Below, piece after piece: positions 40,421 to 57,552 of a stretch of 64,000 bases of DNA. Under the pieces are notes generated by a model. The model was not told the origin of the DNA. It was given only the letters and a program-made list of their open reading frames with translations, and did not search any database. The position numbers were made by a program, and so were the translations under genes. Numbering within the stretch: the first letter of the stretch is position 1; every line of letters starts with the position of its first letter. Origin of the DNA: Paenibacillus sp. 481 (GTDB taxonomy: Bacteria; Bacillota; Bacilli; Paenibacillales; Paenibacillaceae); contig NZ_CP075175.1 in assembly GCF_021223605.1 (NCBI RefSeq), positions 2,548,501 to 2,612,500 of the forward strand, read 5' to 3'.

Positions 40421-40647
40421 GTATACATATGCTTTAACCGATTAGCTGGATGACGTGGAAGAATATATGAAATGACCACGGAGGATACAAGTTGTATACT
40501 TAATAATGGAAGTTAAAATTTATTTAAATGAAATACAATATTTATTTTCTATTAAATTATTGGTAATTATCGCCCGTTTTATGTGTTGTAACATGGCGTA
40601 AGCACCATAATTCATATTTTTTGAGATTTAGAGGGGAGCTTGACATC

Positions 40648-42072
40648 ATGAATGACGCACAAAAGAAGCTTCGATGGTATAACATCGCCCTCATGGCTTT
40701 CGTTTCTGTGTGGGGTTTCGGTAACGTCGTCAACAACTATGCGAACCAAGGTTTGTCCGTTATTACGTCTTGGGTTCTCATCATCGCCCTGTACTTTGTT
40801 CCGTACGCGCTGATGGTCGGCCAGCTTGGCTCAACTTTCAAAGACGGCAAAGGCGGCGTCAGCTCGTGGATTAAGGAAACGATGGGGCCAACTATCGCTT
40901 ACCTTGCGGCTTGGACGTATTGGGTTGTACACATTCCTTATTTGGCGCAGAAGCCACAGGCGATTCTGATCGCACTTGGCTGGACGGCTACAGGCAGCGG
41001 TGACTTTATTAAGAAGTTCTCGCCGATGGCTTTGCAAGTAGCGTGTTTAATCATTTTCTTAATGTTCCTGTGGGTCGCGTCCCGCGGCATTACTTCCTTA
41101 AAGAAAATAGGTACGGTTGCAGGTATTTCTGTCTTCATTATGTCGTTGCTGTACATCGTACTTGCGATTACAGCGCCTATGCTGACAGGTGTTCAGGTAG
41201 CAACGGCTAATATTACGGTTAGCTCGTTTATTCCGGAATTTAACTTCGCTTACTTTACGACGCTATCCATGCTTGTATTTGCCGTTGGTGGCGCGGAGAA
41301 AATATCTCCTTACGTCAACAACACGAACAACCCGTCGAAGGAGTTCCCTCGCGGGATGCTTATTTTGGCGATTATGGTCGCGATCTGTGCCTTGCTTGGC
41401 TCGTTTGCGATGGGTATGATGTTCGACTCGAACAACATTCCAGCGGACTTGAAAATGAACGGCCAATACTACGCGTTCCAAACACTTGGCGAGTACTATG
41501 GTATCGGCAACACGTTCTTGATCTTGTACGCGGTTGCGAACACATTAGCGCAAATCTCAGCTTTGGCGTTCTCGATCGATGCGCCATTGAAAGTGTTGCT
41601 GCTTGATGCAGACGCACGCTACGTTCCGAAGAGCTTGCTTAAGACGAATGCGCATAACACGCCGATTAACGGCTACATTTTGACGGGCATACTCGTCAGC
41701 GCGCTCATTATTATTCCGGCGTTTGGAATCGGCAACATGAACTCGTTGTTCAACTGGTTGCTTGATTTGAACTCTATCGTCATGCCGATGCGTTATTTAT
41801 TCGTATTTTTGGCCTTTATGGCCTTGATGAAGTTGGCTGATAAGTTCCAATCGGATTATCAATTTGTGAAAAATCGCAAGGTCGGCTACGGAATCGCTTT
41901 GTGGTGCTTCCTGTTCACGGCATTTGCCTGCTTGATGGGTATGTTCCCGAAAGTGGAAGCCTTCACAAGTGAGTGGTACTTCCAATTTGCACTCAACGTT
42001 GTGACGCCGTTCGGCTTGCTCGGTCTTGGCTTAATCCTGCCATGGCTGGCGAAGCGTCAGAACAAAATATAA
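40648..42072 (+). CDS. APC-family amino-acid permease
   Basis: A 474-residue integral membrane protein with about 12 segments. The ATG at 40648 (MNDAQKKLRWYNIALMAF) follows GGGGAG at nine bases. APC features: WGFGNVVNNYANQGLSVI helix 1, YWVVHIPYLAQKPQAI, and VGGAEKISPYVNNTNNPSKE, a glutamate/GABA antiporter-like loop. It probably exchanges or imports amino acids; the exact substrate is unknown. Monocistronic, with a 350-base AT-rich spacer upstream that holds the previous terminator. Confidence 0.88.
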   Translation: MNDAQKKLRWYNIALMAFVSVWGFGNVVNNYANQGLSVITSWVLIIALYFVPYALMVGQLGSTFKDGKGGVSSWIKETMGPTIAYLAAWTYWVVHIPYLAQKPQAILIALGWTATGSGDFIKKFSPMALQVACLIIFLMFLWVASRGITSLKKIGTVAGISVFIMSLLYIVLAITAPMLTGVQVATANITVSSFIPEFNFAYFTTLSMLVFAVGGAEKISPYVNNTNNPSKEFPRGMLILAIMVAICALLGSFAMGMMFDSNNIPADLKMNGQYYAFQTLGEYYGIGNTFLILYAVANTLAQISALAFSIDAPLKVLLLDADARYVPKSLLKTNAHNTPINGYILTGILVSALIIIPAFGIGNMNSLFNWLLDLNSIVMPMRYLFVFLAFMALMKLADKFQSDYQFVKNRKVGYGIALWCFLFTAFACLMGMFPKVEAFTSEWYFQFALNVVTPFGLLGLGLILPWLAKRQNKI

Positions 42073-42124: not shown

Positions 42125-42142
42125 ATTTATGTCGTTTATTTT

Positions 42143-42224
42143 GTCATATTACACATCATCACAATAAATATGATTGTTAATCACTATGAAATATGACAAC
42201 ATCTCGCTTACTCTAACCATGTGT
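42143..42224 (+). promoter_or_regulatory. Conserved dyad module A (before hydrolase 1)
   Basis: GTCATATTAC (42143-42152, one base off the palindrome), then AATCACTATGAAATATGACA (42179-42198), then CTTACTCTAA eight bases later. The gap between the two dyads is 26 bases. Confidence 0.7.
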
Positions 42225-42276
42225 TGATGCAGCTAGGGGATAACAACAAACCAATCATGGAGGAGTTGTTTAAGAG

Positions 42277-43482
42277 ATGAATGTAAAGAAAACAATCATG
42301 ATGAGCTTAGCAGTTACGATGACGGGGACAATGCTGCTGTATGCGAACGGAGGAGTGTCTGTTGCAAATGCTCAGACGAACAAAGCAGCACATGTAGCGT
42401 CATTCAATGAGGCGGATGCTGCGCAGAAAAAAAAGGTAATTACACAAGCGCTGGATGAAGTCGTGGCTAAGGGTATCCCAGGTGTGATCGTGCAAACGTT
42501 GAAAAACGGAGCGAAGTGGGAGTACGCGACAGGTAAAGCTAGCATTTATGCGGATCGCAGCATGCAGCCCGATTTTCATTTTCGAATCGGCAGTATAACG
42601 AAGACGTTTGTCGCTACGGTAGTGCTGCAATTAGCAGGCGAAGGAAAGTTGAGCTTGGATGACACCGTGGAAAAGTGGCTGCCGGGTGTTGTACAGGGCA
42701 ACGGCCATGATGGCAGCCAAATTACGGTTCGGCAGTTGCTTAATATGACTAGTGGTATTGCTGACTGTGTAAATGAGTCATTAATGAAAACGTTGAATGA
42801 AAACCGTTTTAAAACCTACACGGCAGAAGAGCTTGTGAAAATAGGCCTACAACAAAAGCCATTATTTACGCCGGGTACTAAGTTTGATTATTCCAGTACG
42901 AATACGGTGCTGGCTGGCTTAATTGTTCAAAAAGTAACAGGTCAATCGTATGCCGAGCAAATTAAACAGCGCATTATTGAACCGTTGCAATTAAAAAATA
43001 CTTCTGTGCCGGGCTCGATTACGAAGTTGCCAGAGCCGCATGCAAGAGGCTATTCCATTAAAGCTCCAGCTGGAGCTTTAGAAGACTTCACAGAGATGAG
43101 TCCGACTTGGGGAAATGCAGCAGGTGAAATGATTTCGACCACGGGTGACTTAAATCGCTTTTTTTCCGAACTACTAGCTGGGAAATTGCTTAAACCAGAG
43201 CAAATGAAGGAGATGCTTAACGCTGTACCCTCACCTGAAATTAATGGTAGTTATGGTCTCGGCATCAATGTGCGGACACTCGCAAACGGAGTGTCGATTT
43301 GGGGACATGCCGGAGGCGTTCCAGGATTTATCTCTTATGTAGGAGGAACACTCGATGGCAAGCATGTGATTAGTTTTAACTATAACCTGCACCACCGCGG
43401 CGAACGCAATAAAGCTAAGGTTATGAAAGATGCGGAGAAAAAAATGCTGGAAGCGGAGTTCGGCAACCCACTCAGTGAGTGA
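42277..43482 (+). CDS. Secreted serine hydrolase 1 (R61/class C beta-lactamase fold)
   Basis: A 401-residue exported protein: signal peptide (first 32 residues, cleavage near ANAQ), then the penicillin-recognising fold. SxxK is GSITKTF (S106, K109). The second motif is YSS (205-207) where all other copies have YSN, a change at a normally conserved active-site residue. Third motif HAG (about 344-346) in WGHAGGVPG. Family members act as D,D-peptidases, D-peptidases, esterases or beta-lactamases. First of six tandem paralogues; own terminator and own dyad module. Confidence 0.92.
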   Translation: MNVKKTIMMSLAVTMTGTMLLYANGGVSVANAQTNKAAHVASFNEADAAQKKKVITQALDEVVAKGIPGVIVQTLKNGAKWEYATGKASIYADRSMQPDFHFRIGSITKTFVATVVLQLAGEGKLSLDDTVEKWLPGVVQGNGHDGSQITVRQLLNMTSGIADCVNESLMKTLNENRFKTYTAEELVKIGLQQKPLFTPGTKFDYSSTNTVLAGLIVQKVTGQSYAEQIKQRIIEPLQLKNTSVPGSITKLPEPHARGYSIKAPAGALEDFTEMSPTWGNAAGEMISTTGDLNRFFSELLAGKLLKPEQMKEMLNAVPSPEINGSYGLGINVRTLANGVSIWGHAGGVPGFISYVGGTLDGKHVISFNYNLHHRGERNKAKVMKDAEKKMLEAEFGNPLSE

Positions 43483-43545
43483 AGTTAACTTTGATTGTTT
43501 GACAACCGGATTCAATTCCATTGTAAAATAGCTATTTGCTGAGTG

Positions 43546-43586
43546 AGGCTGTCCTTAACATCCATCTGGATGTGGGGCAGCCTTTT
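43546..43586 (+). terminator. Terminator after hydrolase 1
   Basis: AGGCTG..AACATCCA pairs with TGGATGT..CAGCCT, followed by TTTGTG. Confidence 0.75.
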
Positions 43587-43608
43587 GTGTTTTGGTAGTC
43601 ATTTTGGT

Positions 43609-43661
43609 GTCATATGACTGATTTGTCACTATGGAACATGACAACGCCTCCCTTAATCTGA
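43609..43661 (+). promoter_or_regulatory. Conserved dyad module B (before hydrolase 2)
   Basis: GTCATATGAC (43609-43618), five bases, TGTCACTATGGAACATGACA (43624-43643), eight bases, CTTAATCTGA. Confidence 0.75.
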
Positions 43662-43698
43662 GGAGGATTCATATTTCATGTGATTAGGAGTGGTAGGA

Positions 43699-44901
43699 AT
43701 GAACGTGAAAAAAATGATCATGTTGAGCTTAGCTGTTATGTTGACAGGGGCAACATTGTTGCCTGTTAGCGGGGGTGTATCGACTGCTTACGCAGCGGAT
43801 AGTTCCAGTCAGATGTCTGAATCAAGTGCAAAAGGGACGGTTGCTGCTACGAAGACGAAGTACGCGGCCATTCAAAAGATCATAGACGACGCTGTTAAGC
43901 AAGGTATCCCGGGAATCATCGTCCAGACCGTTGATCATGGAACGAAAAAGCAATTCAGCGCGGGTAAAGCTAATATCCATTCTGGTCGTCCGATGCAGCC
44001 CGATTTTCATTTTCGCATAGGAAGCATTACGAAAACGTTTGTGGCGGTTGTTATGTTGCAGCTAGTTGGCGAGGGGAAGCTAAGTTTAGACGATTCAGTA
44101 GAAAAGTGGCTGCCGGGCGTTGTGCAAGGCAATGGTTATGACGGGAATAAAGTAACGATTCGAAACTTGCTTCAGCATACGAGCGGGATTGCGGATTACA
44201 CAACTGATCAGACGATGAAGGACTTTTTTGAAAATCCGTTTAGAACGTATACAGCGGAAGAGCTTACTCGTATGGGAGTGCAGCATAAACCGAAATTTGC
44301 CCCGGGGGCGAGATATGAATACTCGAACACAAACACGGTGATAGCTGGCCGCATCATTCAAAAAGTAACCGGACAAACGTATGCTGAACAGATTAAGCAG
44401 CGTATTTTGGAGCCACTGGGGTTGAAAAATACATTTCTCCCGGGCACATCCCAGAAGCTGCCTGATCCTCATGCAAGAGGATACTACAATAAGAAGGGTG
44501 GTACTTTACAAGACTTTACGGAGTATAATACAACTTGGGACGATGCATCGGGCGAAGTGATTTCGACTTTGGATGATCTTAGTCGATTCAATAGCGCGCT
44601 ATTGTCTGGTTCTTTACTACAACCAGAACAGTTGGCACAAATGTTAACAACCATGGATACCATCATGTTGCCAAAAAAACATGCGGGTCTTGGGATTTTC
44701 GAAACCAAATTATCTAAAGATCTGTCTATTTGGGGACACGACGGTGGAGTACCCGGCTCGGCTTCTCACCTCGTCGGAACACGAGATGGCAAACAGGTGC
44801 TAGCGGTTAATATAAATAAACTTGGTGACGATGGAAGAGAGCTTATATTTGGGGTTATCGACAAATTGGACGCGTTACATTTTAACGCAGCTTCGAAGTA
44901 G
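43699..44901 (+). CDS. Secreted serine hydrolase 2
   Basis: 400 residues from ATG 43699 (MNVKKMIMLSLAVMLTGATL), with AGGAG eight bases upstream; the GTG at 43690 is too close to the site. Signal peptide ends near AYAAD. Active-site motifs: SITK in FHFRIGSITKTF, YSN in YEYSNTN, HDG in WGHDGGVPG. The linker after the signal is Ser/Lys/Thr-rich. Faced by a convergent MFS gene through a shared terminator. Confidence 0.92.
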   Translation: MNVKKMIMLSLAVMLTGATLLPVSGGVSTAYAADSSSQMSESSAKGTVAATKTKYAAIQKIIDDAVKQGIPGIIVQTVDHGTKKQFSAGKANIHSGRPMQPDFHFRIGSITKTFVAVVMLQLVGEGKLSLDDSVEKWLPGVVQGNGYDGNKVTIRNLLQHTSGIADYTTDQTMKDFFENPFRTYTAEELTRMGVQHKPKFAPGARYEYSNTNTVIAGRIIQKVTGQTYAEQIKQRILEPLGLKNTFLPGTSQKLPDPHARGYYNKKGGTLQDFTEYNTTWDDASGEVISTLDDLSRFNSALLSGSLLQPEQLAQMLTTMDTIMLPKKHAGLGIFETKLSKDLSIWGHDGGVPGSASHLVGTRDGKQVLAVNINKLGDDGRELIFGVIDKLDALHFNAASK

Positions 44902-44935
44902 ACACTCGACCGACATGCAGGCTCACATTTAAAAA

Positions 44936-44995
44936 TAAAGAAACCGGATGTACCTATGGCTGTAACTCCATAAGGGATATCCGGTTTGCTTCTTT
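44936..44995. terminator. Bidirectional terminator between hydrolase 2 and MFS gene
   Basis: AAACCGGAT (44941-44949) and ATCCGGTTT (44979-44987), with further pairing of CCTATGG and CCATAAGG inside. T-rich on both outer sides. Confidence 0.8.
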
Positions 44996-45003
44996 AATAA
45001 ATA

Positions 45004-46200
45004 TTAGGCGTTTGCCATCTTCGCTTTCTTATTTTTTAACAAGTACCCTGTATAAATGGCCAGATACAACGCGATGAACAAGATAGAGAACAAGTACATG
45101 CCCGAATAGCTCATCTGGCTGGCAACAGGGCCAAGGATCATCGCTCCTCCACCGATACCAAGGTCAAACGAGGAGTAGAACATCCCGTTGGCAACCCCTC
45201 TGCGCTGCGGAGTCACGCGGTTAATAACCCAAGCCTGCAAAGAAGGCTGCACGGCACCGAAGCCTAAACCATAGAACAACGCTGCCACAATAAGCAGCAT
45301 GGTCGAATCCGCATTTGCTAATATAATCAGCCCGATTATCGCAAGTACAGCACCTGGTAGCAACACGGTAACATGTCCTTTTTTATCGAACAACTTACCC
45401 GCTATCGGCCTCACAAGAAAGGCGCATATAGCGTTAATGAAGAAGAACCAGCCTACATTGGCGATGCCAGCCTCAATACCGAACAAGGTAATAAAGCTTG
45501 CGATTCCACCGTACGTAATCCCGAACATAAGCATAAGTAATGATGGGAATAGCGCCTTTTTTTCAAAAAATCGGGCCCATAGCGACATCTTCTCCTGCAC
45601 TTGACTGCCTGCTGGGCGTGGAAGACTAAGCAATAACGTGACGATCATGGATAATACAGTCAAGATAAATGACGTTGTAAACATGGCCTTAAATCCGAAG
45701 CTGTTGGATAGTGCTATACCCGCCATCGGGCCAAGAGCCGCGCCCAAAATAGTTGATAGACCAAAATAGCCAAGTCCTTCGCCACGACGAGCTGCCGGAA
45801 CTAAATCAGAGGCAATCGTTCCGACGGTCGTCGTTACAATACCCCATCCTAATCCGTGAAGAAACCGAACATGTAAGACATAGCCTGCAAGAACAGACCA
45901 ATTATAAAGAGCGATTGCGATTAAACAAATGACATATCCGACGAGCAATATGCGTTTGCGGTTCAATTTATCCAGTGCTGCGCCGGAAATAGGTCGGATA
46001 ATAATGGAGGATAGCGTGAACATCCCCATAATCAGGCCGATGACGAACTCGCTGCCGCCTTGCTGTGCAACGAATGTCGGGATCGTGGGCAGCAACATTT
46101 GAAAGCCCATGAACAGCAGTAGATTGGCCAGTATTAAGGTGACAAATGTCTTGGACCAAATCGACGGTGTTGCAGTTGGTGTCTGTTTGTGTGTGGTCAT
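45004..46200 (-). CDS. MFS transporter
   Basis: A 398-residue, 12-segment major facilitator. It begins with a short Thr-rich cytosolic part, then FVTLILANLLLFMGFQMLLP; motif A-like GAALDKLNRKRILLVGY between helices 2 and 3; GLGWGIVTTTVGTIASDLVP in helix 4. Drug-efflux-like. It follows a TetR gene on the same strand (49-base gap), so the pair probably forms an inducible efflux unit inserted opposite to the hydrolase array. Confidence 0.9.
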   Translation of the reverse strand: MTTHKQTPTATPSIWSKTFVTLILANLLLFMGFQMLLPTIPTFVAQQGGSEFVIGLIMGMFTLSSIIIRPISGAALDKLNRKRILLVGYVICLIAIALYNWSVLAGYVLHVRFLHGLGWGIVTTTVGTIASDLVPAARRGEGLGYFGLSTILGAALGPMAGIALSNSFGFKAMFTTSFILTVLSMIVTLLLSLPRPAGSQVQEKMSLWARFFEKKALFPSLLMLMFGITYGGIASFITLFGIEAGIANVGWFFFINAICAFLVRPIAGKLFDKKGHVTVLLPGAVLAIIGLIILANADSTMLLIVAALFYGLGFGAVQPSLQAWVINRVTPQRRGVANGMFYSSFDLGIGGGAMILGPVASQMSYSGMYLFSILFIALYLAIYTGYLLKNKKAKMANA

Positions 46201-46249
46201 TAGGGCATCTCCTTGTTGTTGGTTTAAGATAATAACGGTAATAACGGTA

Positions 46250-46837
46250 CTAAGGCGTTAACCCTCTAGCTAACACGCGAATAGCATCAGGCAGCCAATC
46301 ATCGAGCTGAATGGATGACACTAAACCGCCTGTAAATGTCTCGCTCACATATTTGCCGTGATTCATATATAGAAACGTAATCGACTGATGCTCGGGATCA
46401 CCGGCAACGACTAGGCCCCTACGCTGCATTTCAGCAAAGTAGTCTGTTAACAGCTCCTTCAGCTTGCGCGGGTGCGCTGTCGACTGCGTAAAGAGCTCCG
46501 GCATCGTGTTTCGTTCCATCATCGAAATGACGAACACTTTCCGGTTTTTCCTCATCAAATCGTGATACAGTTTGCTCACCATGAACAAATCCGCTTCCAA
46601 GTTCCATTTGATGCATTCTTCAAAAGCGTGCGTCATCGGAACGCTATATGAATATTTATCAATCGCTGCCTCTAATATCCCCTTCTTCGTCCCGAAGATA
46701 CGAAATACGGTCATCTCGCTGACCCCAGCAGCTTGGGCAATGCTCTTGGTAGTCACTGCTTGGTAGCCGTGCTCGCAGATGAGTTCAATGGCAGCTTCTA
46801 ATATTTTGTCAGCTGTCTTTTCTGCACGTTGGCTCAT
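46250..46837 (-). CDS. TetR-family transcriptional regulator
   Basis: A 195-residue repressor: N-terminal HTH (KILEAAIELICEHGYQAVTT, KSIAQAAGVSEMTVFRIFGT) and a divergent helical ligand-binding domain. It probably controls itself and the MFS gene through the palindrome at 46860-46875. Confidence 0.9.
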   Translation of the reverse strand: MSQRAEKTADKILEAAIELICEHGYQAVTTKSIAQAAGVSEMTVFRIFGTKKGILEAAIDKYSYSVPMTHAFEECIKWNLEADLFMVSKLYHDLMRKNRKVFVISMMERNTMPELFTQSTAHPRKLKELLTDYFAEMQRRGLVVAGDPEHQSITFLYMNHGKYVSETFTGGLVSSIQLDDWLPDAIRVLARGLTP

Positions 46838-46859
46838 GGTGACGCCCCTTTCCTTAAAT

Positions 46860-46875
46860 GTTAGTGAGTACTAAC
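46860..46875. promoter_or_regulatory. TetR operator candidate
   Basis: GTTAGTGAGTACTAAC is a perfect 6-4-6 dyad, 23 bases upstream of the TetR start. The spacing and form are typical of TetR autoregulatory sites. Confidence 0.7.
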
Positions 46876-46960
46876 TATAATCAATGTTAACGATAGGCCA
46901 AATCGAAGTGGATGTCAACTTCCATTTAATAAGAGGTTACTTATGCAGGTATAGTTTTTT

Positions 46961-47035
46961 GTCATATGACAGTTGGTCAGTCAAGATGATGATGAATCGT
47001 CACTATCAAGCATGACACGCTCAAGCTTACTCTAA
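46961..47035 (+). promoter_or_regulatory. Conserved dyad module C (before hydrolase 3)
   Basis: GTCATATGAC (46961-46970), 27 bases, CGTCACTATCAAGCATGACA (46998-47017), eight bases, CTTACTCTAA. The inter-dyad gap is about two helical turns longer than in modules B, D and E. Confidence 0.75.
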
Positions 47036-47090
47036 TGGTGTGCTGAGGCACAGAAACAGAAACCATTAGAGCGATTGAGGAGATGTGAAT

Positions 47091-48302
47091 ATGAACGTAA
47101 AAAAAACAATGCTGCTGAGCTTTGCGATTATGATGGCAGGTACAACGCTTTTGTATGCAAATGAAGGGACGTCCGCCGCTTTTGTGGATCAATCAAGTCG
47201 TTCAATTATTGCGAAAAAGCCTACAACAGAGATATCCGGGACATCCGAGCAAACTAAGGATGCAATCAGGAAGCTGATGGAAGAAGCAATCAAGCAAGGC
47301 ATACCCGGCATGATCATCCAAACGCAGAATGACGGAGTGAAGTGGGAATATGGAACGGGGAAGAGCAGTATATTTGCGGAACACAAGATGCAGCCCGGCT
47401 TTCATTTTCGAATTGGGAGCATTACGAAGACGTTCACAGCTACTGTTGTGCTGCAATTAGTTGGGGAAGGCAAGCTGAGCTTGGATGATTCGATTGAAAA
47501 ATGGCTCCCGGGTGTCGTACAAGGTAATGGCTATGACGGCAACAAGATTACCGTTCGACAATTACTTAATCATACGAGCGGCATTGCTAGCTACACGGAT
47601 GATACGGCATTTATGGAGAAGTCTTTTGAAAGCCCTTTTAAAGCCTACACGGCTAATGAGCTTGTGAAAGTTGGTTTACAGAAAAAGCCTTTATTCGCAC
47701 CCGGGACGGACTTCTATTATTCTAATACCAATTATGTGTTAGCTGGCTTAGTCATTCATAAAGTATCGGGCAAGACGCACGCGGAGGAAATTACCGAACG
47801 ACTCATAAAGCCGCTCGGTATGAAAAATAGTTTGGTTCCAGGGGCTTCATCTAAGCTGCCAGAACCACATGCAAGAGCTTACTACAGTACGAGCGATAAG
47901 CAGCTTCATGATATTACGGAAATGAATCCAGCTGTGGCTGATGCATCCGGTGATATGATTTCGACAGCTAACGATTTGAACCGTTTCTTCACAGAGCTTC
48001 TAGCTGGAAAACTACTAAAGCCCGAACAGATGAAGCAAATGCTTGATTGTGTAGAGAGTCAGCATGTACGTTATGGTCTAGGTATTCGTGAGATAAAGTT
48101 GGCAAATGGGGCCTCCGTCTGGGGACATGGTGGAGGAATTCACGGCTCAGTATCGCTAACGGTAGGTTCCTTAGGCGGGAAGCAGGTTGTCACATTAAAT
48201 AATAATTATCTTACTCCTGGTAAATTGACACCTCGGCTTGAAGTAGTTATGAGTTTGCAAGATAAGATACCAGCGCTACTATTCCAATCAACTGAAAAAT
48301 AG
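47091..48302 (+). CDS. Secreted serine hydrolase 3
   Basis: 403 residues from ATG 47091, with GAGGAG eight bases upstream. Signal peptide MNVKKTMLLSFAIMMAGTTL, cleavage probably near SAAF. Motifs: SITK in FHFRIGSITKTF, YSN in YYYSNTNYVLAG, and HGG in WGHGGGIHG, a variant of the HxG motif with a His two residues on where others have Pro. Otherwise collinear with the other copies. Terminator at 48306. Confidence 0.92.
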   Translation: MNVKKTMLLSFAIMMAGTTLLYANEGTSAAFVDQSSRSIIAKKPTTEISGTSEQTKDAIRKLMEEAIKQGIPGMIIQTQNDGVKWEYGTGKSSIFAEHKMQPGFHFRIGSITKTFTATVVLQLVGEGKLSLDDSIEKWLPGVVQGNGYDGNKITVRQLLNHTSGIASYTDDTAFMEKSFESPFKAYTANELVKVGLQKKPLFAPGTDFYYSNTNYVLAGLVIHKVSGKTHAEEITERLIKPLGMKNSLVPGASSKLPEPHARAYYSTSDKQLHDITEMNPAVADASGDMISTANDLNRFFTELLAGKLLKPEQMKQMLDCVESQHVRYGLGIREIKLANGASVWGHGGGIHGSVSLTVGSLGGKQVVTLNNNYLTPGKLTPRLEVVMSLQDKIPALLFQSTEK

Positions 48303-48305
48303 ACG

Positions 48306-48356
48306 AAAGGGGATGTCTCGAAAGTCATTGATCATGACGGTGAGGCATCCCCTTTT
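48306..48356 (+). terminator. Terminator after hydrolase 3
   Basis: AAAGGGGATG pairs with CATCCCCTTT, followed by TTACAT. Confidence 0.75.
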
Positions 48357-48460
48357 ACATGTGGCGGACATAAAAAAAGCGTGCTTGCGAGAGGGCCTCA
48401 AGGATGGAACCTCTCAGCTGCTATTTACCTAATGCGCGCTTATTTCGCCATGTTCAATAT

Positions 48461-48512
48461 GTCATATGACATATTGTCACTTGGAAATATGACAGCTACA
48501 CGCTTATGCTGA
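48461..48512 (+). promoter_or_regulatory. Conserved dyad module D (before hydrolase 4)
   Basis: GTCATATGAC (48461-48470, extended to TGTCATATGACA), four bases, TGTCACTTGGAAATATGACA (48475-48494), eight bases, CTTATGCTGA. A further 140 bases of leader contain direct repeats of CACCAACATG type before the gene. Confidence 0.75.
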
Positions 48513-48576
48513 CTCATGTGCTCGTACATTGTGCATCGTGAATCGTGTTAAGGCACACGGGTCAACGAGGGCACGT

Positions 48577-48609
48577 GCACCAACGTGCACCAACATGCAC
48601 CAGCATGTA
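48577..48609 (+). repeat. Short direct repeats in the leader of hydrolase 4
   Basis: GTGCACCAAC, GTGCACCAAC and ATGCACCAGC follow one another in steps of about 11 bases. Slippage-type expansion; no coding role. Confidence 0.6.
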
Positions 48610-48655
48610 TCGAAATGAAGCAACGGCGATCTAGCAACCAAAGGAGATGTTACAC

Positions 48656-49897
48656 ATGAACGTAAAGAAAAAAATGATATTAGGCCTAGCTGTTATGACA
48701 GCAGGGACAACGCTATTGTATGCAAATGGAGGAGCGACACTCGCTCATGCTCAAGCAGAAACTCAAGCAGTGAATCAATTAGAAACTCAAGCGAAGAGTA
48801 CGAGCACTACACCTAACGTGCTGTTAAATAAGACGAATACCGATGCGCAAAAAAAGGCGGTTACACAAGCGCTGGATGACATTCTTGCTAAAGGCGTACC
48901 AGGTGTCCTCGCACAATCCTTGAAAGACGGCGTGAAGTGGGATTATGCAGCAGGCAAAGCCAACGTACATTCCGGACGGAGTATGCAGCCTGATTTTCAT
49001 TTTCGGATTGGGAGTACATCGAAGACCTTTACCGCAACGGTGGCCTTGCAATTAGTCGGTGAAGGGAAACTAAGCCTAGACGATACGCTAGAAAAATGGC
49101 TGCCAGGTGTGGTGCAGGGCAACGGTTATGATGCCAGCAAAATTACGCTCAAGCAATTGCTTAATATGACGAGCGGCATTGCGAGCTATACCAGCAGCGA
49201 ACAATTTACAAAAGGCATGATTGAGAATCGTTTCAAAACCTACCAACCAGATGATCTAGTCAAAATGGCTTTGCAGCAAAAGCCGTTATTTGCGCCTGGA
49301 ACACAGTGGTCCTATTCCAATACAAACACGGTACTCGTCAGTCTAATGATTGAAAAAGCAACGGGACAAACACATGCCGAGCAAATTAAACAGCGTATTA
49401 TCGAACCGTTAAAGTTAACGCATACGTATGTACCAGGCAAATCGCAGAAGCTCCCAGAGCCGCATGCAAGAGGATATTATGCATATAAGCCGGATAAATC
49501 TTTAGAAGATTTCACCGAGCAAAATGTCACGGTTGCCCATGCGGCAGGTGAAATGATTTCATCCAACGCGGACATCAATCGCTTCTTCAGTGAACTGCTG
49601 TCGGGCAAATTGCTCAAGCCTGAGCAAATGAAGCAGATGTTCGAATCACCAATTGACAGCCCATTGGGGCGTTACGGGCTCGGTATTTATGAAAGAAAGT
49701 TATCGAATGGCCATGCGGTCTGGGGACATGATGGAAGTATTCCAGGCTACGCTACGTTTGTAGGTGGGACACTCGGAGGTAAGCATGTCATCAATTTCAA
49801 CATTAATCTACTCTCCGGCGATATCAAGCAGATGACGTCTATATTGGAGGCAGGCAATAAAGTATTTGAAGCGGAGTTCGCTCAATCCGCGAAATAA
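48656..49897 (+). CDS. Secreted serine hydrolase 4
   Basis: 413 residues from ATG 48656, nine bases after AAGGAG; the ATG at 48647 lies in that site. Signal peptide ends near LAHAQ; a Gln/Thr-rich spacer follows. Motifs: STSK in FHFRIGSTSKTF, YSN in WSYSNTNTVLVS, HDG in WGHDGSIPGY. Closest in appearance to hydrolase 5 (shared AQSLKDGVKW and GKANVHSGRS-type segments). Terminator at 49905. Confidence 0.92.
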   Translation: MNVKKKMILGLAVMTAGTTLLYANGGATLAHAQAETQAVNQLETQAKSTSTTPNVLLNKTNTDAQKKAVTQALDDILAKGVPGVLAQSLKDGVKWDYAAGKANVHSGRSMQPDFHFRIGSTSKTFTATVALQLVGEGKLSLDDTLEKWLPGVVQGNGYDASKITLKQLLNMTSGIASYTSSEQFTKGMIENRFKTYQPDDLVKMALQQKPLFAPGTQWSYSNTNTVLVSLMIEKATGQTHAEQIKQRIIEPLKLTHTYVPGKSQKLPEPHARGYYAYKPDKSLEDFTEQNVTVAHAAGEMISSNADINRFFSELLSGKLLKPEQMKQMFESPIDSPLGRYGLGIYERKLSNGHAVWGHDGSIPGYATFVGGTLGGKHVINFNINLLSGDIKQMTSILEAGNKVFEAEFAQSAK

Positions 49898-49904
49898 ATA
49901 GGGA

Positions 49905-49950
49905 AAAAGGCTGCCCAGAGATGCTTTTCTCATAAGGGCAGCCTTTAATT
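49905..49950 (+). terminator. Terminator after hydrolase 4
   Basis: AAAGGCTGCCC pairs with GGGCAGCCTTT around a 19-base loop. Confidence 0.75.
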
Positions 49951-49952
49951 AT

Positions 49953-50004
49953 GTCATATGACATTGCGTCACTAGGAGAGTTGACAGCAGCTCGCTTATT
50001 CTAA
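49953..50004 (+). promoter_or_regulatory. Conserved dyad module E (before hydrolase 5)
   Basis: GTCATATGAC (49953-49962), four bases, CGTCACTAGGAGAGTTGACA (49967-49986), eight bases, CTTATTCTAA, then ATCATGTGTTCGATC as in module A. Confidence 0.75.
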
Positions 50005-50098
50005 ATCATGTGTTCGATCCGCGGTACAACGACCAAGGAAAGCCATTACATAAGCCCGAGCACAGCTTACTTATCTGATATTTGAGGAGAGATTAGAA

Positions 50099-51307
50099 AT
50101 GAACGCAAAGAAAACAGTACTGTTGAGCTTATCCATGATGATGGCAGGGACGATGTTGCTGTATGCGACTGGAGGCGCGGTAAAAGTTAACGCCGTGCAA
50201 GCGAATATAGGCCATTTAACGCCTGCAATTTCCTTAAAGAGTTTAGGCACAGAGGAACAAAAAAAGGCAGTCCAACAAGCTTTGGATGAAATGGTTGCTC
50301 TAGGTATTCCGGGTGTGTTGGCACAATCCTTGAAAGACGGCGTGAAGTGGGGATATGCAGCAGGTAAAGCTAACATTCATTCGGGTCGCAGTATACAGCC
50401 TGATTTTCATTTTCGGATTGGAAGTACAACGAAGACCTTTACCGCCACTGTGGTGCTGCAATTAGTCGGTGAGGGGAAGTTAAGCTTAGACGATACCGTT
50501 GAAAAATGGCTGCCCGGTGTGGTACAAGGCAACGGCTATGATGGTAGCAAAATTACGATTAGGCAGCTGTTGAATATGACGAGTGGAATTGCGAGCTTTA
50601 ACGAAGCAAATACACAGTTTGCAAAAGATGCGCTTGAAAATCCACTTAAAAGCTATAAGCCGGAACAACTAGTTAAACTTGGCTTGCAGCAAAAACCATT
50701 ATTTGCACCGGGAACCTCATGGTTCTATTCCAATACGAATTATGTGTTAGCGAGCTTAATCATTGAGAAAGTAACGGGGAGTACGTACCCCGAACAAGTG
50801 AGAAATCGAATCATTGAGCCTTTGCAATTAAAAAATACATATGTGCCAGAAGCGTCACAGCATCAACTGCCAGAACCATATACGAGAGGCTATTTTGCAC
50901 AAAAGCCGGGCGGGGACTTACGAGATTTTACGGAGATAAATGCTACGGCGGCGTATGCATCGGGGGGTATGGTTTCAACAGCGGGAGACATCAATCGCTT
51001 CTTCACGGAACTGTTGTCGGGCAAGCTGCTTAAACCGGAGCAAATGAAGCAGATGTTTGAAGATACAGTAGATAGCCCGAATGGTCGCTACGGACTTGGT
51101 ATTTTTGAGACGAAGCTTGCGAATGGTGTAGCCGTGTGGGGGCATAACGGAGCTATCCCAGGATACTTGACGTTTGTAGGTGGGACACTCCATGGCAAGC
51201 ACGTGATTAGTTATAGTCTGAATTTACTTGCTATCGATAAGATGAAATCGATAAAAGAGATTAGCCAAAAGGTACTCGAAGCGGAATTTACTCATTCAGC
51301 AAAGTAA
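50099..51307 (+). CDS. Secreted serine hydrolase 5
   Basis: 402 residues from ATG 50099, after GAGGAG. Signal peptide MNAKKTVLLSLSMMMAGTML. Motifs: STTK in FHFRIGSTTKTF, YSN in WFYSNTNYVLAS, HNG in WGHNGAIPGY. There is no hairpin in the 81 bases before hydrolase 6, so the two are probably one transcript. Confidence 0.92.
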   Translation: MNAKKTVLLSLSMMMAGTMLLYATGGAVKVNAVQANIGHLTPAISLKSLGTEEQKKAVQQALDEMVALGIPGVLAQSLKDGVKWGYAAGKANIHSGRSIQPDFHFRIGSTTKTFTATVVLQLVGEGKLSLDDTVEKWLPGVVQGNGYDGSKITIRQLLNMTSGIASFNEANTQFAKDALENPLKSYKPEQLVKLGLQQKPLFAPGTSWFYSNTNYVLASLIIEKVTGSTYPEQVRNRIIEPLQLKNTYVPEASQHQLPEPYTRGYFAQKPGGDLRDFTEINATAAYASGGMVSTAGDINRFFTELLSGKLLKPEQMKQMFEDTVDSPNGRYGLGIFETKLANGVAVWGHNGAIPGYLTFVGGTLHGKHVISYSLNLLAIDKMKSIKEISQKVLEAEFTHSAK

Positions 51308-51388
51308 GTGAAGGGCTATTTTAATGCACTCACGTCATAGGTGTGAATCTAAAAAATTCCAGCCATTTGGCGAGGAGGCATGAAGCAG

Positions 51389-52639
51389 ATGAATATCCGA
51401 AAAGTGATGATGCTTAGCTTAACCGTCTTATTGACTAGTGCAACCATACTGACGGCAGGCGGGGGAGCCGTGTTAGCAGCAGCGGGCACGACAGGTGCGA
51501 CAGGCGATACTACCGCTACGAACGCCAATACAAAAGCAGCGACGAACCAATCGATACATTCAACTAAGAGCGGACAACATAATGAGCTCAATCGTACTAT
51601 TGTGCAGGCGTTAAAAGAGGGAGTTGCTAAGGGGATTCCGGGCGTTCTCTTCGTTACGAATAAGGACGGAGTCGCGCAGCATTATACTTCAGGGTCAGCT
51701 AACCTCTTTTCAGAGCGAAGTATGAAGACAGACTTTCATTTCCGAATCGGCAGCATTACAAAAACATTTGTGTCGGTTACGCTACTGCAACTCGTAGGAG
51801 AAGGTAAGTTAAGTCTGGATGACTCCGTGGAAAAATGGCTGCCAGGACTTGTGCAAGGCAACGGCTATAAGGGAAGCGACATTACAGTCCGACAAGTGCT
51901 AAACCATTCAAGCGGTATAGCTAGCTATACGGATGAAGCGTTTATGAAGAAGTTATATGAAAATCGATTTAAGAGCTTTACTTCTGAGGAACTCGTAAAA
52001 GTAGGCATTCAACAAAAGCCGTTGTTCGCACCAGGCGCTAAGTCGTCTTACTCCAACACGAATTACATTATTGCTGGAATGATTATTGAAAAGGTGACCG
52101 GACAATCATCTGCCGAGCAAATTAAACAGCGTATTATAGAACCGTTGAAGCTGAAAAATACGAGTGTACCAGGCTCTGTCACGAAGCTGCCCGAGCCGCA
52201 CGCCAGAGGCTACTACCAGCATAAAGCAGGTGGGCCATTAGAAGATTTTACAGAGCTTAATGTCACCGCAGCTTCTACATCAGGCGGAATGATCTCGACA
52301 GCCGATGACCTTAATCGCTTCATAACGGCAGTGATAAATGGCAAGTTGCTTAAGCCCGAACAAATGAAGGAGTTGCAACATACGCTACCACTCCCCGAAG
52401 CTGGCGGAAGTTATGGTCTTGGCATTATAGAGACGCAGCTCCCAAATGGGGTGAAGTTGTGGGGCCATGCCGGAGGTATTCAAGGATTTAGGACGTATAC
52501 GTTTGTTACGAGTGATGGGAAACATGCAGCAACAATGAGCATTAACTACCATGGCAATGATCTAAACGCTGTCATGACAGAGTTGTTGATGAAAGTATAC
52601 GAAGCAGAGTTCTCTGCTGTCCCTGCATCTAAACCGTAA
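51389..52639 (+). CDS. Secreted serine hydrolase 6
   Basis: 416 residues from ATG 51389 (MNIRKVMMLSLTVLLTSATI), ten bases after GAGGAGG. Signal peptide, then an Ala/Thr/Gly/Asn-rich linker longer than in the other copies. Motifs: SITK in FHFRIGSITKTF, YSN in SSYSNTNYIIAG, HAG in WGHAGGIQGF. It lacks the upstream dyad module; only GTCATA remains in the gap. The most divergent copy in the catalytic N-lobe (SANLFSERSMKTDF). Confidence 0.92.
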   Translation: MNIRKVMMLSLTVLLTSATILTAGGGAVLAAAGTTGATGDTTATNANTKAATNQSIHSTKSGQHNELNRTIVQALKEGVAKGIPGVLFVTNKDGVAQHYTSGSANLFSERSMKTDFHFRIGSITKTFVSVTLLQLVGEGKLSLDDSVEKWLPGLVQGNGYKGSDITVRQVLNHSSGIASYTDEAFMKKLYENRFKSFTSEELVKVGIQQKPLFAPGAKSSYSNTNYIIAGMIIEKVTGQSSAEQIKQRIIEPLKLKNTSVPGSVTKLPEPHARGYYQHKAGGPLEDFTELNVTAASTSGGMISTADDLNRFITAVINGKLLKPEQMKELQHTLPLPEAGGSYGLGIIETQLPNGVKLWGHAGGIQGFRTYTFVTSDGKHAATMSINYHGNDLNAVMTELLMKVYEAEFSAVPASKP

Positions 52640-56159: not shown

Positions 56160-56349
56160 TTGAAAAAGGGAAGCCTTTTTTTATAAAAATTTTCCACAAC
56201 TTTTTTCGGCGAGTGAGAAGTACAGGAATAACGTGCATTTTTTATTCGAGTGAGGGGCATTGTATATCCATGAAAAAGGAATGAAATCATTCCCAACATC
56301 CCAAGTGAAGTCATTCCAATTTAGTCATTTCAAACGTGGAGGCGCTTGT

Positions 56350-57552
56350 ATGTATGATTGCATCATAGTCGGGGGTGGCATTGCAGGTTTGCAGGCAGCG
56401 ATTCAGTTGGGGCGGTATGCGCATCGTGTGCTAGTCATTGATGCAGGCACAGGGCGCTCCACCCTGTGCCGCCAATATCGGAACTTGCTCGGCTGGCCGG
56501 ACGGTATATCAGGAGATGAATTGCGGCGGCTCGGCCGGGTACACGCAGAGCGATTTGGAGTTGAATTTAGACATGGGGTAGTCGTTAAAGTAAACCATGC
56601 TGAGCGAAATAATAGTACAGAGGAAAATGTAATCACTAATACAGGTAATACAGGCAATACAGATTGTACAGATGAGGGTGTGGGTTTTATCATCACTGCG
56701 GCTCGCGCTACCGGAGAAACTGAACATACACAGCGTGCAGAGCATACCGAGCATACCGAGCATACCGAGGAAACTGAAAATACAGAGCACTCAGGGTATA
56801 TAGAACATACCGAGGGAATCGAATATACAGAGCACACTGAGCATATAAAGCACACTGAGCATATAGAGCAAACAGAGTGTATAGACCATATGGAGCATAC
56901 GGGGCATACAGCAGACACTGAGCGACATGAGCAGTTTCATGCACTGACTGTCTTATTTGCAACCGGCGTGACGGATCGATTCCCAACTGTACCAGGGTTG
57001 CGGGAATGCTTAGGGCTGACGGTATATGTATGCCCGGACTGTGACGGTTATGAAGTGCGCAACCGCCGCACGATCGTGCTTGGAGCTGGGGACACGGGAG
57101 CGCAAATGGCTTTAACCCTGTATGAGCGCACCCAGCATCTTATTTATATCAATCATGATTACCGTTCTAGCCCCGTATCGAAAAAAGTGGCGGCTCAGCT
57201 GCAAGCAAAGGCAATTGAGGTGCAACATGAGCAGGTCGTAAAGGTGCTGACAGTAGGAGATGGACAGTTTCAAGGCGTGGAGTTGGCTGATGGACGTGTC
57301 ATTTTAGCGGAAAGGGCGTTTATTGCATTTGGTGGCAATAAGGTTCACTCCACTTTGTTGAAGCAACTCGGAGTAGAGCGCTTTGAGAATGAACACATTC
57401 CGACCGAGCTGCGCAGTAAAATGACCAATGTAGACGGGGTATGGGCTATAGGCGATATTGGTTTGCACGCGGAGCAGGTCGCGATTGCAATCGGGGAAGG
57501 ATCACAGGCCGCTATTTGGATACACAAAACAATCATGACCCTGCAAAAATAG
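56350..57552 (+). CDS. Thioredoxin-reductase-like flavoprotein with His-Thr-Glu repeat insertion
   Basis: About 400 residues from ATG 56350 (GGAGG seven bases upstream). FAD-binding VGGGIAGLQAA (7-17), redox pair CPDC (C228, C231) before DGYE, NAD(P)-binding GAGDTG (245-250), and C-terminal AIGDIGLHAEQVAIAIGEG. All parts of the family are present. Between residues about 123 and 193 there is an extra segment built of EHT/HTE triplet repeats, encoded by 9-base units, rich in His and Glu. Without it the length (about 330) would be normal. Disulfide reductase activity is likely; the partner is unknown. Confidence 0.85.
   Translation: MYDCIIVGGGIAGLQAAIQLGRYAHRVLVIDAGTGRSTLCRQYRNLLGWPDGISGDELRRLGRVHAERFGVEFRHGVVVKVNHAERNNSTEENVITNTGNTGNTDCTDEGVGFIITAARATGETEHTQRAEHTEHTEHTEETENTEHSGYIEHTEGIEYTEHTEHIKHTEHIEQTECIDHMEHTGHTADTERHEQFHALTVLFATGVTDRFPTVPGLRECLGLTVYVCPDCDGYEVRNRRTIVLGAGDTGAQMALTLYERTQHLIYINHDYRSSPVSKKVAAQLQAKAIEVQHEQVVKVLTVGDGQFQGVELADGRVILAERAFIAFGGNKVHSTLLKQLGVERFENEHIPTELRSKMTNVDGVWAIGDIGLHAEQVAIAIGEGSQAAIWIHKTIMTLQK
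56715..56930 (+). repeat. 9-base coding repeats (GAGCATACC type)
   Basis: Perfect and degenerate copies of GAGCATACC/GAGCACACT encode the His-Thr-Glu insertion. The perfect copies are at the start, the degenerate ones toward the end, as in a growing minisatellite. Confidence 0.8.

Follow-up and report, generated by a model that had tools for sequence, protein, structure and literature searches.

A tandem array of six predicted secreted D-peptidases with a common promoter module in Paenibacillus sp. 481

Six neighbouring serine hydrolase genes in Paenibacillus sp. 481, detected in a stretch of 64,000 nucleotides (the window), probably encode a co-regulated, secreted arsenal of D-peptidases directed against nonribosomal peptides that contain D-amino acids, controlled by a fused kinase; we put the probability of this reading at roughly 60%. 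D-Amino acids are a main cause of the protease resistance of nonribosomal antibiotics (polymyxins, gramicidins, tridecaptins), and D-peptidases that defeat such resistance are known as single enzymes. We found no description in the literature searched of the regulation of D-peptidases, including those of Paenibacillus, or of sets of such enzymes with diverged pockets. If the reading is true, the array would represent a secreted D-peptidase system that is both regulated and diversified, and for which a candidate regulator, an operator prediction and specificity predictions for individual residues are at hand. It would also offer a source of D-specific proteases and constitute a reservoir of peptide-antibiotic degradation that should be watched.

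Organization of the array and family of the enzymes

The six S12 hydrolase genes (PF00144; E 6e-62 to 5e-68 in profile searches) occupy positions 42277-52639, all on the forward strand, and encode proteins of 400-416 amino acids: h1 (42277-43482, 401 aa, PF00144 E 4e-66), h2 (43699-44901, 400 aa), h3 (47091-48302, 403 aa), h4 (48656-49897, 413 aa), h5 (50099-51307, 402 aa) and h6 (51389-52639, 416 aa). Their N-termini are hydrophobic and signal-like with an Ala-rich end, from which export is predicted on the basis of hydropathy, and inspection of the polar or amphipathic C-termini gave no sign of an anchor. This agrees with the original prediction of six exported paralogues on one strand. The same prediction assigned SxxK, YxN-type and HxG motifs to all of them, which is correct for SxxK (SITK in h1) and for HxG (HAG in h1 and h6, HDG in h2 and h4, HGG in h3, HNG in h5), but YxN is present in five of the six (h2-h6), since h1 has YSS instead of YSN, a variation also found in the h1 orthologues of two other species. 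Pairwise protein identities range from 48 to 69% and are mostly 48-61%, with h4 and h5 as the closest pair (69%).

Strong hairpins (z -5.1 to -5.9) follow four of the genes and are absent after h5 and h6. On the forward strand they are located after h1 (43545-43592; -26.9 kcal/mol, z -5.4), h3 (48306-48360; -28.9 kcal/mol, z -5.9) and h4 (49906-49950; -24.2 kcal/mol, z -5.1), where terminators had been proposed earlier; that list was incomplete, as h2 is also followed by one, possibly bidirectional, in front of the MFS gene (44938-44996; -23.3 kcal/mol, z -5.3). Because there is no strong hairpin after h5 and the gap to h6 is only 81 bp, these two genes are probably co-transcribed as an operon.

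Between h2 and h3 the array is split by two genes on the reverse strand that the original prediction had left out, encoding an MFS transporter (45004-46200; PF07690 E 4e-62) and a TetR-family regulator that is divergent to h3 (46250-46837; PF00440 E 6e-14). For the MFS gene no evidence was found that it belongs to the regulon described below. The TetR protein was considered as regulator of the array and rejected, since its own promoter carries a different palindrome, GTTAGTGAGTACTAAC, and the TetR and MFS genes were not found at orthologous loci.

The nearest solved structures are the alkaline D-peptidase 4y7p (E 5e-108 to 5e-113, with 5e-108 for h1, 5e-111 for h4 and 5e-113 for h5) and dHy1 (9s7k), followed by 3wwx and R61. 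An AF2 model of h1 (pLDDT 88) also gave 9s7k and 4y7p as best matches in Foldseek. That the six enzymes belong to the alkaline-D-peptidase branch within family S12 is well supported by computation. The alkaline D-peptidase (ADP) is a D-stereospecific endopeptidase that accepts D-Phe at P1 (PMC4570186), and the supernatant of B. anthracis contains a D-stereospecific activity that hydrolyses gramicidin A (PMC9541196).

A promoter module and its candidate regulator

The promoter module is composed of the palindrome TGTCATATGACA and a TCACT-N7-ATGACA dyad (consensus TCACTAn5ATGACA), followed at a spacing of exactly 10 bp by a TAnnnT -10 box. As the original prediction had it, the same module precedes the first five hydrolase genes; it is absent before h6. 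All copies are on the forward strand, at 42142-42214 for h1 (TGTCATATTACA, a gap, AATCACTATGAAATATGACA, N10, TACTCT), 43608-43659 for h2 (TGTCATATGACT .. TGTCACTATGGAACATGACA-N10-TAATCT), 46960-47033 for h3 (TGTCATATGACA .. CGTCACTATCAAGCATGACA-N10-TACTCT), 48460-48510 for h4 (TGTCATATGACA .. TGTCACTTGGAAATATGACA-N10-TATGCT) and 49952-50002 for h5 (TGTCATATGACA .. CGTCACTAGGAGAGTTGACA-N10-TATTCT). Throughout the 5.69-Mb genome, the core pattern returned the h1-h5 sites and a single weak site with three mismatches. The exact palindrome occurs five times, at h3, h4 and h5, at a gene for an SLH-anchored S12 protein and at the gene that lies immediately 3' of the one for the fused kinase discussed below. 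Matches to consensus sigma-70 promoters at h1-h5 were no commoner than in shuffled sequences, and a constant TAnnnT box without a good -35 element would fit an activator-dependent promoter better. The separate promoters proposed earlier thus exist for five genes, but these promoters share one conserved operator-like module, due to which h1-h5 look like one regulon rather than a collection of independent units. Shared regulation of the array is well supported by computation.

Copies of the module also stand in front of D-peptidase genes in six related species. None was found at the D-peptidase genes of G003, G008, G013, G023, G037 and G016 C17. An exact palindrome in contig 9 of G004 seems to lie inside a coding sequence and is probably there by chance, and a module in contig 3 of G015 is not followed by any clear intact gene. 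In G012, a frameshifted B1 metallo-beta-lactamase gene has a module in front of it, along with a signal peptide that resembles those of D-peptidases. This arrangement and the beta-lactamase activity reported for ADP (PMC4570186) make beta-lactams possible targets, and one could imagine that protection against these compounds by a class C-like PBP/beta-lactamase is the main role of the array. We consider that improbable, as the six proteins score only 65-92 bits with the class C profile (NCBIfam bla_class_C), for which the cut-off is 415, and find their best matches among D-peptidases.

A single-chain protein with four domains (HisKA_3 kinase, ATPase, receiver, LuxR) is the likely regulator of the module, judged from gene neighbourhoods. 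All six relatives with the module at D-peptidase genes (G004, G006, G012, G015, G016 and G017) carry its gene in divergent orientation to such genes, and in four of them the module faces both ways. Two-domain fused D-peptidases were also seen beside the regulator in relatives. The orthologue in Paenibacillus sp. 481 is not adjacent to the array: it is encoded 68 kb downstream, outside the window, with a module just 3' of its gene and no good module before the gene itself. We infer that the regulator binds the module, that it activates and does not repress and, as proposed in the next section, what the inducer is.

Divergence of the paralogues and proposed function

All six paralogues fell into one clade (support 98/90) in the tree that the original prediction had suggested for detecting a scattered origin, and they represent five orthogroups that also occur in other Paenibacillus species. 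Orthologues in these relatives are found at separate loci that have kept the module; those of h3 are at L161, L162, L163 and L166, and h4/5-h6 gene pairs are present at L159 and L160. Because the orthogroups are common to other species, and there located separately, the duplications are old, and the orthogroups predate speciation. Plasmid mobility of the array was rejected after PLSDB gave no DNA match to it and only proteins of <60% identity. An attempt to locate the empty site via aceA/aceB was abandoned as well, aceA being missing in the four closest D-peptidase-rich relatives and having different neighbours in other genomes.

Among the six paralogues, identity in the substrate pocket is 0.308, against 0.609 for the domain (P=0.004). 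Position 245 is W, W, V, V, A and A in h1-h6 and hardly varies within the orthogroups of h1, h2 and h3; pocket positions such as 245 and 299 (Arg in h3) follow the orthogroup. The S1/S1' pocket is thus the diverged part of these enzymes, which, within the limits of sequence evidence, speaks for different specificities and against dosage. An amplification of six near-equivalent enzymes that raises secreted activity might be expected from the tandem arrangement, the common module and the 69% identity of h4 and h5. Nevertheless, most identities are only 48-61%, the orthogroups are older than speciation, and pocket residues differ among paralogues while several are constant within orthogroups, so that an effect of dosage is quite unlikely. 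Of the specificities mentioned in the original prediction, the one toward D-amino-acid-containing antibiotics gains support from the D-peptidase relatives, the ancient orthogroups and the pocket divergence; an action on peptidoglycan stems or on esters is less probable.

The peptidoglycan option deserves consideration, since the fold is shared with R61 (TM 0.93 by target length), h1 and h2 have Trp at the position of R61 Trp233, h3 has Arg at that of Arg285, and the regulator is of a type akin to the kinases of envelope stress. The array would then encode R61-like DD-carboxypeptidases or endopeptidases for wall remodelling under envelope stress. However, the sequences are far nearer to D-peptidases (E 5e-108) than to R61 (1e-57), and the R61 substrate set of Trp233, Arg285 and Thr299/Thr301 is complete in 0/6: Trp occurs only in h1/h2 and Arg only in h3, no protein has both, and equivalents of Thr299/Thr301 occur in none. 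Such a role therefore seems unlikely.

In the reading that we prefer, each of h1-h6 would probably cut peptides after a D-amino acid by a Ser/Lys/Tyr acyl-enzyme mechanism. Their preferences would differ, depending on the residues of the S1 pocket (245 and the 132-144 loop) and of the S1' side (299, 313 and 315). The module would drive h1-h5, h6 would be transcribed with h5, and the membrane-bound fused HisKA_3 kinase-receiver-LuxR protein would be the likely controller. D-Peptides would be the substrates and the role would be protective, and the result would be inducible extracellular destruction of D-amino-acid nonribosomal peptides, produced by competitors or by the NRPS-rich strain itself. 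A more detailed version, to which we give somewhat less than an even chance, is that the one-chain sensor detects D-peptide antibiotics or the membrane damage that they cause and co-induces D-peptidases with complementary P1/P1' preferences, which degrade varied nonribosomal peptides outside the cell, from one array in this strain and from several loci in its relatives. Points against the preferred explanation are the location of the array, which is not beside an NRPS cluster, unlike cluster-linked self-resistance peptidases, the distant regulator gene without a good module of its own, and the missing YxN Asn in h1.

The genome contains 115 matches to NRPS condensation domains, the nearest of which is ~0.8 Mb away from the array. 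Together with the secretion and co-regulation of the enzymes and the presence of an amino-acid permease gene (40621-42072) directly upstream, this would agree with nutrient scavenging or turnover, in which the enzymes digest D-peptides as food, derived either from NRPS products or from debris of the wall, or recycle the strain's own lipopeptides. There is little chance that this is the main function, as the permease gene ends in a terminator-like hairpin and has no module, and a membrane-sensing kinase would suit stress better than feeding.

Comparison with known systems

ADP (Bacillus cereus DF4-B, 4y7p) and dHy1 (9s7k) share the S12 branch, the fold and the catalytic Ser/Lys/Tyr/His positions with the array, at ~48-49% identity to the h1 model. 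The array differs from them by its six tandem paralogues, its longer and diverged 132-144 loops, its conserved promoter module, the presence of W, V or A instead of Met at position 245, and the YSS of h1. The Streptomyces R61 DD-peptidase (1cef/1ikg) and the D-stereospecific amidohydrolase 3wwx have the same fold and catalytic motifs, and an R61-like Trp at S1 (h1/h2) or Arg (h3) is found, but both show lower identity and fall outside the array clade.

Peptidases of the BogQ/TriF type reportedly possess a membrane-anchored periplasmic peptidase domain and are encoded together with the NRPS whose product they cut; in the array enzymes no anchor was seen, and their genes are not NRPS-linked. A separate membrane-anchored S12 protein of this genome (L028) is encoded inside an NRPS region. 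BogQ and TriF resemble the array in that they are SxxK serine peptidases; by cleavage behind D-residues they render peptide antibiotics inactive, as described for tridecaptin (PMC8127968). These enzymes were described as self-protection of producers, whereas the array enzymes look freely secreted, without an anchor and far from NRPS genes.

For the fused kinase-LuxR regulator, no named counterpart was found in the literature searched. Its four domains are those of the NarL/LuxR-type two-component systems with HisKA_3 kinases, from which it differs in that the kinase and the response regulator are fused and that, in relatives, it is linked to D-peptidase genes.

The array of D-peptidase-family genes

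The array consists of six PF00144 (family S12) genes, all on the + strand (h1, 42277–43482; h2, 43699–44901; h3, 47091–48302; h4, 48656–49897; h5, 50099–51307; h6, 51389–52639). Read from a conserved MNxKK start, they encode proteins of 401, 400, 403, 413, 402 and 416 residues that are 48–69% identical in pairs, each with a signal-like N-terminus. As originally noted, SxxK and HxG occur in all six, but the YxN-type motif is limited to h2–h6 (YSN), h1 having YSS. Since this Ser is also found in h1 orthologues from two other species, it is a fixed trait of that orthogroup, and a sequencing slip is ruled out as its source.

The best solved relatives are the alkaline D-peptidase of Bacillus cereus DF4-B (ADP; 4y7p) and dHy1 (9s7k), a D-stereospecific hydrolase, with E about 1e-97 or better, followed by a D-stereospecific amidohydrolase (3wwx) and the R61 DD-peptidase; a fold search with an AlphaFold2 model of h1 (pLDDT 88) led to the same enzymes. 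Against the NCBIfam class C beta-lactamase model h1–h6 score 65–92 bits, the cut-off being 415. That they belong to the alkaline-D-peptidase branch of S12 is hardly in doubt. Of 27 PF00144 matches genome-wide, only the array six are close to h4. Three S12 proteins of 693–715 aa are encoded within about 20 kb at L199:12432–16831 (−) and L200:10876–13023 (+); at least two of them have S-layer homology (SLH) domains, and one promoter carries the D-peptidase module described below.

Between h2 and h3 the array is interrupted by an MFS and a TetR gene, both on the − strand. The palindrome GTTAGTGAGTACTAAC in the TetR promoter (46838–46900) is likely the TetR operator, distinct from the D-peptidase module. 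Predicted hairpin terminators at h1, h3 and h4 were all found, and h2 proved to have one too; none was detected after h5 or h6, so these two probably form one transcript. At 56260–57552 (+) lies an oxidoreductase-like ORF into which a long low-complexity run of HTEHTE-type repeats is inserted.

Pocket divergence and age of the paralogues

Either dosage or different specificities had been proposed to explain the array. When the subsite residues that PMC4570186 gives for ADP were transferred to the alignment, position 245, which lines the P1 side chain and is Met in ADP and Trp in R61, read W, W, V, V, A, A across h1–h6, position 299 N, F, R, Y, F, I and position 313 A, D, G, D, N, A. Mean pairwise identity between the six paralogues is 0.308 at eight pocket positions versus 0.609 for the domain (P = 0.004, by comparison with random column sets), the pocket definition resting on docking to ADP and loop columns varying in any case. 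Per orthogroup, position 245 is WWW (h1), WW (h2), VVVVI (h3) and ASSSS (h6), while Met in relatives of h4/h5 limits the specificity reading; pocket identity inside orthogroups is 0.50–0.85, with some positions variable. Simple dosage would not leave such a pattern, and the sequences suggest that specificity has quite likely diversified.

The tree originally proposed as a check, built by maximum likelihood, unites h1–h6 and relatives of other species in a single clade (98/90), which divides into five orthogroups (h1, h2, h3, h4/h5, h6). In four related Paenibacillus genomes (G004, G006, G012, G015) the orthologues occupy separate loci: h1–h3 pairs in G012 and G004, h3 alone in G006 and G015, h4/5–h6 pairs in G006 and G012, h6 alone in G004 and G015, and h2 alone in G012. 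These shared orthogroups indicate that the paralogues predate the species compared; only h4/h5 may have split recently.

The promoter module and its candidate regulator

The module upstream of h1–h5 comprises the palindrome TGTCATATGACA, a gap, a TGTCACTAn6ATGACA-like dyad, exactly 10 nt and a TAnnnT box. Its downstream part occurs in this genome at h1–h5 only, plus one weak match. The exact palindrome has five sites genome-wide: h3, h4, h5, C1:282603 (5' of an SLH-anchored S12 gene) and C1:2670965 (just 3' of the gene for a fused HisKA_3-HATPase-receiver-LuxR protein); the second dyad is also present at the last two, weaker than at the array. In relatives the module precedes orthologues of h1, h2 (weaker in G012), h3 and h4/5, and h6 in G015; none was found at D-peptidase genes of G003, G008, G013, G023 and G037 or at G016 C17. 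Since a module-like site precedes a secreted amidohydrolase gene in G016 and G017, and the full module with a D-peptidase-like signal peptide precedes a frameshifted B1 metallo-beta-lactamase frame on G012 contig 38 (L250:1501–2384), the module accompanies secreted hydrolases. Regulation is very probably shared across the array genes.

The fused kinase, encoded 68 kb beyond the array, is the likely regulator of the module. Its orthologues are 60–61% identical in G004, G006, G012 and G015 and 49–50% in G016 and G017, and in all six the gene adjoins a D-peptidase locus in divergent orientation. Module-bearing species share a well-conserved DNA-binding helix of the LuxR type (RNYC in 7/7; RNYI/A/V in more distant homologues). 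In the first four genomes the D-peptidase locus includes genes for two-domain D-peptidases (739–758 aa), and the intergenic palindrome is flanked on both sides by the second dyad and −10 box, so the kinase gene is probably a target as well. Pocket residues are mostly unlike between the two fused peptidase domains (L168–L171). In G017 (contig 5, L173) three shortened, partly degraded-looking D-peptidase ORFs adjoin the kinase gene. In the Paenibacillus sp. 481 genome the divergent neighbour of the fused kinase gene is instead a member of the erythromycin-esterase family (PF05139; L201:7598–8920, −), at the place where relatives have D-peptidases. This genome also encodes another fused kinase, 38% identical to the first, next to an SLH-S12 gene with the module, which makes cross-control possible. 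In the candidate regulator, several membrane segments and the lack of a large outer domain suggest sensing in or at the membrane.

Proposed function

ADP cleaves after D-Phe (PMC4570186), B. anthracis supernatant contains a D-stereospecific activity that hydrolyses gramicidin A (PMC9541196), and tridecaptin is inactivated by BogQ and TriF after D-Dab or D-Trp (PMC8127968). We consider antibiotic defence the main role of the array, with a probability of about 0.6. With 115 condensation-domain matches the strain is itself rich in NRP production; classical cluster-linked self-resistance is nevertheless less favoured, because the array is distant from condensation-domain genes and encodes enzymes that lack an anchor. 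Rather, they would protect in the surroundings of the cell, possibly to the benefit of neighbours too. Elsewhere in the genome (C1:562–573 kb; L028:4614–6149, −), flanked by NRPS condensation-domain matches, an S12 gene encodes a 511-aa protein that begins with a signal peptide and has three membrane segments at its C-terminus, as one would expect of a self-resistance peptidase resembling TriF or BogQ.
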